From: Paenibacillus ihbetae
Lineage (GTDB): Bacteria > Bacillota > Bacilli > Paenibacillales > Paenibacillaceae
Direction of reading: 5' to 3'
DNA: 64,000 nt
Assembly (NCBI RefSeq): GCF_002741055.1
Contig: NZ_CP016809.1
Span: forward strand, 3,202,501-3,266,500
Positions within the stretch are counted from its first letter, which is position 1; every line of letters begins with the position of its first letter. The position numbers and the translations under genes were made by a program. Positions 60,406-63,739 of this stretch are shown here, piece after piece. A model generated the notes under the pieces. The model saw only the letters and a program-made list of their open reading frames with translations. It was not told the origin of the DNA and ran no database searches.

Positions 60406-61974
60406 ATGAAGGGTTTCAAGGGGATACGGTGGATCGAAGGTTTGCTTCGTAGACAGCAAGCGGATCGCTCCGCCCTACACAACAATTCAACAGACGAGTC
60501 CGAGCTGCCTTCTCATCCGGAATCTACTGGACGGGCCATTCCGCGCAAGTGGATTTGGATATCGGCAGGGGCTCTACTCCTAGCAGGATCGATATATACC
60601 GGCGGTAAGGCTTATGTGAACGCCAATACCATTCCGTTCTATCATGTATATGTAAACGGGCAGGCGATCGGCGCGATAGCCGATGACGCTGAGCTGGATC
60701 AGCTGTTCGAAGAGAAGCGGCAGGAATATCAGGAGAAATATCCGGATGTGCTTATGGTTTTGCATACCGATGGGATTACAACGAAAGCAGACCGCTCCTT
60801 CAAGCCGGACATTAACAGCGAGGAAACGCTGAACAAGCTGGACGGCATGCTGAAGGCATATGCTCGAGGCGTCGAGCTGAAGGTGGACGGCAAGACCGTT
60901 GCAATCGTTAAGGACCAGGAGACCGCAAGGGCTGCGATTGAGGCTGCCAAGCTGAAATTTACGCCGGACGCGGATGCGGGGAAAACCCAGACGCAGCAGG
61001 TTGCTTTTAAGAAGGTCTCTGCTCAAGCCTCTGCCAAGAATAAGGAAGGCGCCGAGCTGGAGTCCGTCCAGATCAAGGAAGAGATTACGGTAGCCGGTAC
61101 GAAAGCCGATCCGAACAAGGTCCTGGATGTGGAGGACGCCGTGAAGGTGCTGACCGGGACGAAGGACAAGCCGGTGACCTACACGGTGAAAGAGGGGGAT
61201 ACGATCACCTCGATCGCCAAGCAGTTCGGGATGAAATCATCGGAGGTTATGGCCTTGAATCCGGGGCTCGAGGAGAAATACATGCAGATCGGATCCGAGC
61301 TTCAGCTTACCCAGCCGGAAGCGCCGCTCACGGTGCGGACGGTCGAGACGGTTACCGAGAAGCAGCCGAGCAAGCCGGAGACGATCGTTCGCAAGAGCGA
61401 CCAGCTTCCTCTCGGGAAGCGTAAGGTTGTCCGCCCTGGACGAGACGGCGTCAAAACCGTGAGTTACGTGGTAACGAAGGAGAACGGCAGAGTCGTCTCC
61501 AAGCAGTGGACCGGCCAAGAGGTGGTTCAGGAGGCGCTGCCGGAGGTTGTTTATAAAGGCACGAAGGTGGAACGCAAGGTCGCACCGAAGGTTAGCAAAA
61601 AAACATCGAGCAGCAAGCAGTTCGCCTGGCCGGTGAGTGGAGCGCGCATCACGAGCTCCTTCGGACATCGCTGGGGACGGAGCCATGAGGGCATCGACGT
61701 CGTTGGCGGCAGCACCATTATGGCTGCGGCTTCCGGACGGGTGGTCTTCTCCGGCCAGCAGAGCGGGTACGGCAATGTGGTCATCGTGGATCACGGTAAC
61801 GGGTACCGCACCTTATACGGCCATATGAGCCGGATCTCCGTCAGCAACGGCCAGTCCGTCAGCCAAGGTCAGAAGCTTGGCGTGATGGGCAACACCGGCC
61901 GTTCGACCGGCACCCATCTCCATTTTGAAATTCAAAAAAATGGAGTTGCCCAAAACCCGATGAAATATTTATAG
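60406..61974 (+). CDS. M23 family metallopeptidase with LysM and G5 domains
   Basis: A 522-aa cell-wall hydrolase-like protein. A cytoplasmic N-terminus of about 48 aa precedes a membrane helix (49-66) and an alpha/beta region to about 245. A LysM domain (258-302, YTVKEGDTITSIAKQF) is followed by a G5-like domain (about 308-386) and an M23 endopeptidase domain (about 424-518). Zinc ligands are His427 and Asp431 (SHEGID) and His506 (HLHFE). The LysM binds glycan strands while M23 would cut peptide crosslinks. It lies just upstream of walRK, the master regulator of wall hydrolases, an apt neighbourhood. It ends with NPMKYL. Confidence 0.94.
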   Translation: MKGFKGIRWIEGLLRRQQADRSALHNNSTDESELPSHPESTGRAIPRKWIWISAGALLLAGSIYTGGKAYVNANTIPFYHVYVNGQAIGAIADDAELDQLFEEKRQEYQEKYPDVLMVLHTDGITTKADRSFKPDINSEETLNKLDGMLKAYARGVELKVDGKTVAIVKDQETARAAIEAAKLKFTPDADAGKTQTQQVAFKKVSAQASAKNKEGAELESVQIKEEITVAGTKADPNKVLDVEDAVKVLTGTKDKPVTYTVKEGDTITSIAKQFGMKSSEVMALNPGLEEKYMQIGSELQLTQPEAPLTVRTVETVTEKQPSKPETIVRKSDQLPLGKRKVVRPGRDGVKTVSYVVTKENGRVVSKQWTGQEVVQEALPEVVYKGTKVERKVAPKVSKKTSSSKQFAWPVSGARITSSFGHRWGRSHEGIDVVGGSTIMAAASGRVVFSGQQSGYGNVVIVDHGNGYRTLYGHMSRISVSNGQSVSQGQKLGVMGNTGRSTGTHLHFEIQKNGVAQNPMKYL

Positions 61975-62041: not shown

Positions 62042-62078
62042 AAGATGGCCGCTCCTTTACGGGGGCGGCCATTTTCTT
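62042..62078 (+). terminator. Intrinsic terminator of the M23 gene
   Basis: AAGATGGCCGC pairs with GCGGCCATTTT around a CTCC..GGGG stem, followed by CTTCG. The T tract is short but the stem is strong. Confidence 0.8.
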
Positions 62079-62094
62079 CGTTTGCATCTGCTTG

Positions 62095-62870
62095 GATGGG
62101 ATTTGGGGATGTCATTGGCAGAACGGGAAATATCTTTTCAGCCGCTGTTGTCCGCCCTTTGTCTTGACTGGAATTTGGACTAAGGGGACAAAGGGCTCCC
62201 AAAGGCGGCCTCCAAGATATTTTCCCTTATCTGCAAAGTCCATCCCCATTTCCGTGGAAGCAGATGCTGCCGAAGAAGGGGCCGCTCCCCGTGAATCGGA
62301 GCGGGCCGTGGAGGCGGGGATGTGGGTGGCAGAGCGGGAAATGTCTTTCCAGCCGCTGTTGGGCATGGGGGGTCCTTCTCCATCGCTGTTGAATTCGGAA
62401 AAATTGGAACTAATCATCCCTGATGAAATTTTCCGAATTCAAAGGCGAGCGCTCCGCTTTCCGAATGCCACCCCAAGCTGCGTGAAGGGTTCCCATCTGC
62501 AAAGTCCATCCCCATTTCCGTGGAAGCAGATGCTGCCGAAGAAGGGGCCGCTCCCCGTGAATCGGAGCGGGCCGTGGAGGCGGGGGATGTGGGTGGCAGA
62601 GCGGGAAATGTCTTTCCAGCCGCTGTTGGGCATGGGGTGTCCTTCTCCATCGCTGTTGAATTCGGAAAAATTGGAACTAATCATCCCTGATGAGATTTTC
62701 CGAATTCAAAGGCGAGCGCTCCGCTTTCCGAATGCCCCCCAAGCTACGTATGAAGGGTTTCCCTTATCTGCAAAGTCCATCCCCATTTCCGTGGAAGCAG
62801 ATGCTGCCGAAGAAGGGGCCGCTCCCCGTGAATCGGAGCGGGCCGTGGAGGCGGGGGATGTGGGTGACGA
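62095..62870. repeat. Tandem array of about 270-bp structured repeats (one degenerate, two full, one partial copy)
   Basis: Copies begin (at CTGCAAAGTCCATCCCC) at 62231, 62497 and 62768; the third stops near 62866. A degenerate half-copy precedes them (62113-62230). Each full unit contains GCAG/CTGC, GGCCGCTCC/GGAGCGGGCC, GGAAA/TTTCC and CAGC/GCTG hairpins, then a long inverted repeat (TTGAATTCGGAAAA / TTTTCCGAATTCAA). Spacings of 266 and 271 bp and a one-base indel in a G-run destroy any shared frame, so the array is not protein-coding although an open frame crosses it. Confidence 0.92.
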
Positions 62871-63007
62871 AGTGAGAAGCTGGAGCAACGGAGTGAGTGC
62901 TGCGTGCTTGGGGCGTCCATTCCCCCGCGGAATGGGTGTGTCCAGGCGGCAGGTGTGTTAAAATGAAAAGAAGACCGTTCAAGTGAAGGTATGAGGTGAA
63001 CAGGAAG

Positions 63008-63739
63008 ATGCAGGGAACTATTCTGGTGGTGGATGACGAACAGCCCATCGCCGATATTTTGAAGTTTAACCTGGAAAAAGAGGGCTATGAGGTCATCTGC
63101 GCCTTTGACGGCATCAGTGCGGTCGACATCGCGCTGACTCGGCGCCCGGATCTAATGCTGCTTGATCTGATGCTCCCCGGTAAAGATGGGATGGACGTAT
63201 GCCGCGAGGTGCGTGCCGCCAACCTGCAGATCCCGATCATCATGCTGACGGCTAAGGACGGAGAGATCGACAAGGTGCTCGGGCTTGAACTCGGGGCGGA
63301 CGACTACGTGACGAAGCCGTTCAGCACAAGAGAACTGCTGGCCCGGGTGAAGGCGCAGATGCGCCGGCAGCAAAAGCCTGACAACACGGCGGATCAAACG
63401 GGCAGTACCGGTGCGGGCGGACAAGGCCTGCGGTTGTTCGATCTGTTTATCGATACGGATATGTATATGGTATACAAGGGCGGCGAGGCCCTTGATCTGA
63501 CGCACCGGGAGTATGAGCTGGTGTATTATTTGGCGCGCAATGCCGGCAAAGTGATGACCCGTGAGCACTTGCTGCAAGCGGTATGGGGCTTTGAGTACTT
63601 CGGGGATGTCCGCACGGTGGATGTGACCATTCGCCGATTGCGGGAGAAGATTGAAGAGAATCCGAGCAAGCCGGAGTATATTTTGACCCGGCGCGGTCTC
63701 GGCTACCTGATGCGAAGCCCTAAAAACGGAGGCCTCTAA
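63008..63739 (+). CDS. walR: Essential response regulator WalR (YycF)
   Basis: An OmpR-type regulator of cell-wall metabolism genes. The protein is 243 aa from ATG 63008. The receiver domain has [10 protein letters not shown], phosphoacceptor Asp53 in [11 protein letters not shown] and the TKPFS lysine. The winged-helix output domain has [19 protein letters not shown] and [19 protein letters not shown], and it ends [11 protein letters not shown], typical of WalR. GAGGTGA lies 7 nt before the ATG; a GTG at 62996 is an alternative. Its stop overlaps the walK start by one base. Confidence 0.95.

Follow-up and report, generated by a model that had tools for sequence, protein, structure and literature searches.

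A palindromic, MITE-like intergenic element family of the Paenibacillus family with a predicted branched fold

The findings presented here suggest that a repeat array of Paenibacillus ihbetae belongs to an intergenic, palindromic, MITE-like family of about 200 bp in the Paenibacillus family. Probably, the element spreads non-autonomously and one of its strands is predicted to fold into a conserved branched hairpin. It measures about 200 bases, lies between genes and is present in about 60 copies in the P. ihbetae genome (G000). It is abundant in Paenibacillus-family genomes and unlisted, and no description of it was found in the open-access journal literature searched.

Organization of the repeat array

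The window is the whole stretch of DNA analysed, 64,000 nucleotides long (G000:C1:3202501-3266500), from a genome of 6.59 Mb in a single contig. The array occupies the spacer between an M23/G5/LysM peptidase gene (60406-61974) and a response regulator gene (62996-63739, domains Response_reg and Trans_reg_C) named walR in the first-pass annotation. This spacer holds three element copies and one truncated further repeat, and its direct repeats are 113-158 nt long and 266-271 apart. The features, in window positions, are the following:

62047..62070, plus strand: terminator stem of the M23 gene, a perfect stem (sequence and fold)
62084..62267, minus strand: copy 1, a complete element whose terminal arms GCATCTGCTT / AAGCAGATGC close an end-to-end hairpin (fold and model match)
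62143..62207, minus strand: core of copy 1, CGCTGTT (62143) and AAAGGCG (62201) flanking the stem GCCCTTTGTC/GACAAAGGGC (core pattern, sequence)
62272..62311, plus strand: degenerate terminator copy closing repeat unit 1 (sequence, fold)
62316..62513, minus strand: copy 2, a chimera of type-1 arms, a lone left box (62354) and the inner hairpin of a second element (model match)
62384..62447, minus strand: core of copy 2, boxes at 62384 and 62441, stem TTGAATTCGGAAAA/TTTTCCGAATTCAA (core pattern, sequence)
62538..62577, plus strand: degenerate terminator copy of repeat unit 2 (sequence, fold)
62583..62784, minus strand: copy 3, a tandem duplicate of copy 2, 98% over 158 nt (model match)
62651..62714, minus strand: core of copy 3 (core pattern, sequence)
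62766..62878, no strand assigned: truncated last repeat unit with an outer arm, a terminator copy (62809-62848) and the beginning of another unit (96% to the reference repeat copy)

All the motifs quoted in the first-pass annotation were present where it had placed them, with the inverted repeat TTGAATTCGGAAAA/TTTTCCGAATTCAA in two units and a different one, GCCCTTTGTC/GACAAAGGGC, in the first. Both kinds of hairpin are entered from CGCTGTT and exit into AAAGGCG, and their loops have AATTTGGACTAA or AATTGGAACTAA in common. The roles given to the units, on the other hand, had to be reversed. The supposed degenerate half-unit is actually the complete copy, in which the arm GCATCTGCTT starts at 62084 and the closing arm AAGCAGATGC reaches 62267. 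It folds end to end with -87.6 kcal/mol (62084-62269; z -8.4 as RNA and -8.1 as DNA). The units that had been taken as full are chimeras, each with a solitary left box CGCTGTT (at 62354 and 62621) and, after it, a complete second core whose stem is different; copy 2, taken whole, did not fold significantly better than its shuffles (z -1.5, 16 out of 200 equally good). A covariance model derived from 49 copies of named species, independent of the P. ihbetae genome, from which no sequence was fetched, matched the three window copies on the minus strand far beyond chance, with 44.8 bits (copy 1, 62106-62241, E 2.9e-11), 60.5 bits (copy 2, 62345-62491, E 5.8e-16) and 57.5 bits (copy 3, 62612-62753, E 4.5e-15).

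Degenerate copies of the M23 terminator stem occur at about 62272, 62538 and 62809, one per repeat unit, and that stem is their likely source. In our reading, terminator and element were duplicated together in tandem, and the inner hairpin was swapped before or after this event. A 289-aa open frame (62092-62961) spans the whole array without a stop, with successive repeats in different frames, and neither this frame nor a 101-aa frame of the array had a Pfam match. A protein repeat was thus rejected on account of the frame shifts and the lack of Pfam matches, in agreement with the first reading of the array. At the other end of the window, a 16S rRNA gene on the minus strand is cut by the window start (1-803).

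Abundance and host range

Blastn searches revealed similar arrays elsewhere in the P. ihbetae genome, all with CGCTGTT, a variable stem-loop and AAAGGCG in common. The core pattern matched this genome 45 times, against 7 for the reversed pattern; four of the 45 matches (2841867, 2965568, 3695634 and 5485743) had no inner stem and were judged by eye to be chance. Using the covariance model, at least 73 places were found at E 0.001 or better and at least 59 at E 2.9e-9 or better among the 150 scored out of 1775 candidates, a few of these matches being opposite-strand echoes. The core was present in all 37 genomes of the genus (P. ihbetae included) and in 6 out of 23 other genomes of the order, two of these six (G042 and G054) having a single match each; in G021, three out of four core matches showed no stem by eye. 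The strict core pattern was found in 21 out of 22 genomes of the family and in none of 228 others of the class. Among the matches listed, the named hosts were mostly Paenibacillus, and also Saccharibacillus and Fontibacillus.

As for MITEs, the elements are short, non-coding, repeated and dispersed, 158 out of 162 having no overlap with a script-called gene. No Rfam family reached its gathering score at the element in the window or at seven other loci, where only weak matches appeared (E values reaching 10 in the window and 5 at the loci), and a known RNA family was rejected on this basis. The downstream genes had no common function: 40 proteins out of 47 collected carried 70 Pfam families with at most two members each. 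The idea of a regulon or a riboswitch-like cis-regulatory leader was rejected, since no more than 2 of the 40 neighbours shared a Pfam family. The first-pass annotation had also considered a conserved position relative to genes, and no fixed position beside genes of one function was found. We did observe that the 5′ side of the strand bearing the plus boxes was the one nearer to a gene boundary in 106 out of 141 elements (loci L121-L279), whatever the gene direction, which may mean that insertion is biased or that part of the element is missing. Three loci had additional features. The four tandem element copies at L060:1687-2771 weakly matched ctRNA_pGA1, a plasmid antisense RNA family (25-29 bits, below the gathering score of 45), a c-di-GMP-I riboswitch (L033:2069-2163, 77.7 bits) lay about 500 bases from an element of the same genome, and 12-nt tandem repeats (CGGAACTACCCA) adjoined a four-unit element array (L019:2987-3154).

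Covariation of the predicted fold

The elements share a two-box core, CNCTGTT...AAAGGNG, whose N bases pair and change together on both sides. The inner and outer stems change sequence yet stay paired, and a small hairpin adjoins the core. Alignment A2 contained 49 rows (94 out of 127 elements passed and 49 of the first 60 were used, four loci with extra hairpins and near-duplicates being dropped). RNAalifold predicted 31 pairs on it, 23 of them with two-sided changes, and once the small hairpin was added (32 pairs as given) 89.5% of the cells were paired, counts that lean to the alignment's own consensus and come from related rows that are not independent. Two-sided changes amounted to 298, compared to 85.7 in the shuffles, none of 500 having as many, and to 49-135 when one side was slid. 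Less striking was the count of pairs that showed a two-sided change at all (25), which 5 out of 500 shuffles reached, and one proposed pair (columns 53 and 127) failed in 41 out of 49 rows. The flanking stems displayed up to all four Watson-Crick types, and the first pair of the small hairpin was G-C in 41 rows, A-U in 7 and G-U in 1. Covariation was therefore above the column-shuffled control, as expected of a structured RNA, and the box pair itself covaried too.

The boxes look invariant in alignments A1 and A2 because most copies had been collected by exact boxes. In the P. ihbetae genome, 41 out of 59 strong model matches carry both exact boxes. Among the other 18, four carry CTC/GAG (L377, L379, L381 and L385) and four CCC/GGG (L378, L382, L383 and L387) instead of CGC/GCG, a two-sided change that defines two subfamilies missed by the exact-box pattern; a ninth variant, L386, is likely of the CTC/GAG kind. 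Since the box pair changed on both sides in eight copies, the boxes themselves pair, and the mismatched bases beside the changed pair (TG or TC vs AG) remain unpaired in these copies.

The best reading of these alignments is that the predicted branched fold is under selection. The first-pass annotation had suggested selection on a folded RNA or cruciform from stems that differ and still pair. This is supported by the related copies, which covary; in the window itself, the inner hairpin appears to have been swapped wholesale rather than changed base by base. A search of this and related genomes and a comparison of two-sided changes with shuffles yielded dozens of copies and a covarying fold, rather than the missing covariation and neutral decay that the first-pass annotation had named as refuting it.

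Identity of the folded strand

To judge from base composition at the pairs and from computed folding, the reverse (R) strand is likely the folded one, opposite to the strand that the first-pass annotation had described. On the R strand, the inner stem showed 30 G.U vs 7 A.C and 32 G.A vs 2 U.C, and the outer stem 34 G.U vs 19 A.C (p 0.05, weak) and 21 G.A vs 15 U.C. Pair by pair, G.U led in 12 and A.C in 4, with 7 ties. It is this excess of G.U over A.C and of G.A over U.C that points to the R strand. An earlier count on 126 cores (positions 1-13) agreed (88 vs 22), 2 weakly paired cores out of 128 having been dropped and plus-strand G.T exceeding A.C at the poorly paired positions 14-16. The R strand also folded better in 35 out of 49 cases with RNA parameters and in 43 out of 49 with DNA parameters.

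Relative to its surroundings, the R strand has the direction of both flanking genes in 84 cases vs 22, while in the window the likely folded strand is antisense to both neighbour genes. It agreed with the replication fork in 35 out of 42 cases in G013 and in 22 out of 41 units in P. ihbetae (origin assumed near walR), fork and gene direction being inseparable in these strand-bias data; disagreement with the fork had been the criterion for choosing 20 further loci.

Changes at orthologous sites and nested modules

We found 38 element pairs, in 12 groups, with both flanks homologous. One pair had identical cores. Among the pair changes of the other 37, 86 were two-sided and compensated, 17 one-sided and tolerated, and 15 broken; a single exchanged site contributed 40 of the 86, and the element pairs of one group are not independent. 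At the exchanged site, whose flanks are 91.5-94% identical, G080 and G082 have one element and G006 has another, different between the tips. The more distant G083 and G062 carry the G006 type, therefore the exchange likely took place in the line of G080 and G082. A copy of this site's inner stem was present elsewhere in G082 and G006, with different flanks. At the other orthologous sites, the stems change inside otherwise conserved elements. The M23-walR site was compared in 11 relatives: two had exact core units, one had a type-1-like copy and eight had none. That elements are kept at orthologous sites while their changes are compensated is equally compatible with a host function and with a parasite.

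The longer copies of G013 carried hairpins of 41-44 nt at fixed points, one of them inside AAAG|GCGA, another within the small hairpin and a third within the outer arm. At one orthologous site, the AAAG|GCGA insert was present in G082 and absent from G006 and G001. The hairpin module was seen 28 times, a script placing 25 of them beside a core and inspection by eye the remaining three; these loci had been chosen for bearing elements or ends, and confinement of the module to elements does not follow.

Element ends and dispersal

Terminal inverted repeats CTATATAAnnTGAAC were conserved in part of the copies. Across 42 copies of G013, conservation drops sharply outside the element, and the end sequence TATATAAGTTGAAC occurs 85 times in that genome. 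At least 15 other G013 copies matched one 2.3-kb locus over the element alone, with 86-95% identity (15 of 175 candidates scored). When stretches were picked by their paired ends and not by the core, 13 out of 14 held the core by model, and the fourteenth was a 102-bp deletion. In other species, at a fixed distance, both ends matched at 11 or more of 15 positions in 23 out of 243 elements, compared to none in far flanks and none on the wrong strand, shared terminal inverted repeats being a character of MITEs; these 23 include the G013 loci L300 and L313, and the stricter count without G013 is 21 of about 240. Most copies, including those of the window, have no recognisable ends. The flanking bases mostly give C|TATATAAG...CTTATATA|G, which would agree with TA inside the ends. 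None of the sites compared was a clean empty one with a duplicated target, the element-less ones (8 out of 11 relatives at M23-walR, and G011 elsewhere) being too diverged to read. Together, the conserved ends, the 15 dispersed copies and the different elements at one orthologous site indicate that copies move or are overwritten. The defined ends and the dispersal of related copies support the mobile palindromic element listed among the initial suggestions. L281 and L285 of G013 have identical 12-base flanks on each side, so that the segment copied there was longer than the element.

No transposase with the element's ends was found, either through the exact end sequence in G013 or at four DDE_3 transposase loci of G013 and G002, which had been returned as candidates for an IS630-type partner. 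A wide pair of ends in G013 that resembled an IS encloses an ordinary oxidoreductase-like gene. A REP/RAYT system was rejected because the Y1_Tnp search gave no matches in the copy-rich genomes G000, G017, G019 and G025; Y1 transposases were present in 27 out of 60 genomes searched.

Proposed mechanism and alternative explanations

In the mechanism that we propose, the element ends would be recognised by a transposase supplied in trans, and the fold, as RNA or single-stranded DNA, would be needed by the element or the host, so that copies with broken stems would be lost. In the window, replication slippage at a hairpin may have duplicated the element together with its neighbouring terminator, and exchange with another copy may have replaced the inner hairpin, leaving a different stem with preserved pairing. 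Copies would thus be duplicated, exchanged and decorated with extra hairpin modules while the branched fold stays under selection. It is likely that the stems remain paired because the predicted fold is important for a small DNA parasite, itself predicted to spread by means of a borrowed enzyme. A more specific version, which we consider rather unlikely, is that the element is recognised by shape, with an enzyme reading the two-box core only in a folded single strand such as the lagging-strand template. If so, arms and stems would be free to change or be swapped wholesale, one element could replace another at a given site, nested hairpin modules could be taken up at the core, and an attC-like logic would operate in a gene-less palindrome.

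The parasite is not the only reading of a conserved fold. The R strand could be transcribed with operons elsewhere and then folded, cut or bound as a structured RNA with a host function, mobility being only how the copies arose; a similar RNA role has been proposed for ERIC, BOX and Correia elements. We regard this as possible, though doubtful. The orientation of the folded strand with both flanking genes (84 vs 22), its G.U excess and the elements kept at orthologous sites with compensated changes are what such an RNA would show, but in the window that strand is antisense to both genes, the downstream genes have no common function and no Rfam family was matched. The loops of the small hairpin are also GNA or GNNA, with a pyrimidine as third base in 14 out of 18 four-base loops. 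The usual RNA tetraloop is GNRA, to which these loops do not conform, while d(GNA) and d(GNNA) loops are stable.

The perfection of the stems could also stem from mutation instead of selection, if template switching rewrote one arm of a quasi-palindrome from the other. This is a serious rival for how the stems stay perfect, as the process is reported (PMC8794818) to create and mend hairpins and multi-base changes are common in the elements, yet as a full account we find it improbable. In the eight P. ihbetae copies with a two-sided box change, the adjoining mismatches (CTGTT or CTCTT vs AAAGG) were left unmended, a test that copies collected by exact boxes could not provide. Arm correction alone should not produce G.U above A.C and G.A above U.C on one strand either. 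Neutral decay of one duplicated spacer, finally, would agree with an array that is a local tandem duplication with terminator copies, but it is refuted already by the dozens of unlinked copies and the family-wide covarying fold, and we give it almost no credence.

With the mobile, folding element as the preferred reading, a strong covariation signal lies on what appears to be mobile DNA. The family thereby lends itself naturally to testing if hairpins are kept paired by selection or by template switching, and if a mobiliser acts on folded single strands. Many copies are flanked by genes that run in the same direction and, should they be transcribed, could influence mRNA stability in a large group of soil and industrial bacteria.

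Comparison with known systems

Integron attC sites have conserved boxes around a stem of variable sequence and fold in a strand-specific manner. The element resembles them in its conserved boxes flanking a variable stem and in its apparently strand-specific fold. Its boxes, as we take it, do not fit the attC R boxes, and the window units are separated not by cassette genes but by terminator copies, with two frames that had no Pfam match.

REP/REPIN sequences with RAYT are likewise hairpins dispersed between genes, and TIRYT transposases are flanked by families of terminal inverted repeats, as described in parts of PMC3733652. In contrast, the ends of the present element are CTATATAAG and not GTAG, and no Y1 transposase was found in its own genome or in several copy-rich relatives.

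The nearest known kinds are BOX, RUP, ERIC, Correia and CIR, as far as the relevant sections of PMC3049150, PMC2229807 and PMC10969869 describe them. The pneumococcal BOX, RUP and SPRITE are short intergenic repeats with predicted stem-loop transcripts and, inside BOX, modular units, and the terminal inverted repeats of BOX and RUP have been proposed to be recognised by a transposase in trans (sections of PMC3049150). The likeness extends to short intergenic repeats, stem-loops, modules and terminal repeats; sequence and host differ, the modules here occupy set positions in a conserved core, and no partner transposase was found for this family. ERIC/IRU, Correia/NEMIS and CIR are repeats of about 100-200 bp whose transcripts form long stem-loops; according to portions of PMC2229807, ERIC and Correia have terminal inverted repeats and TA at their ends, and CIR is listed without terminal repeats and with a phylogenetically conserved RNA fold. 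Unlike these, the Paenibacillus-family element was confined, in the genomes sampled, to the order that includes Paenibacillus, and its arms and stems are exchanged or rewritten around a constant two-box core.
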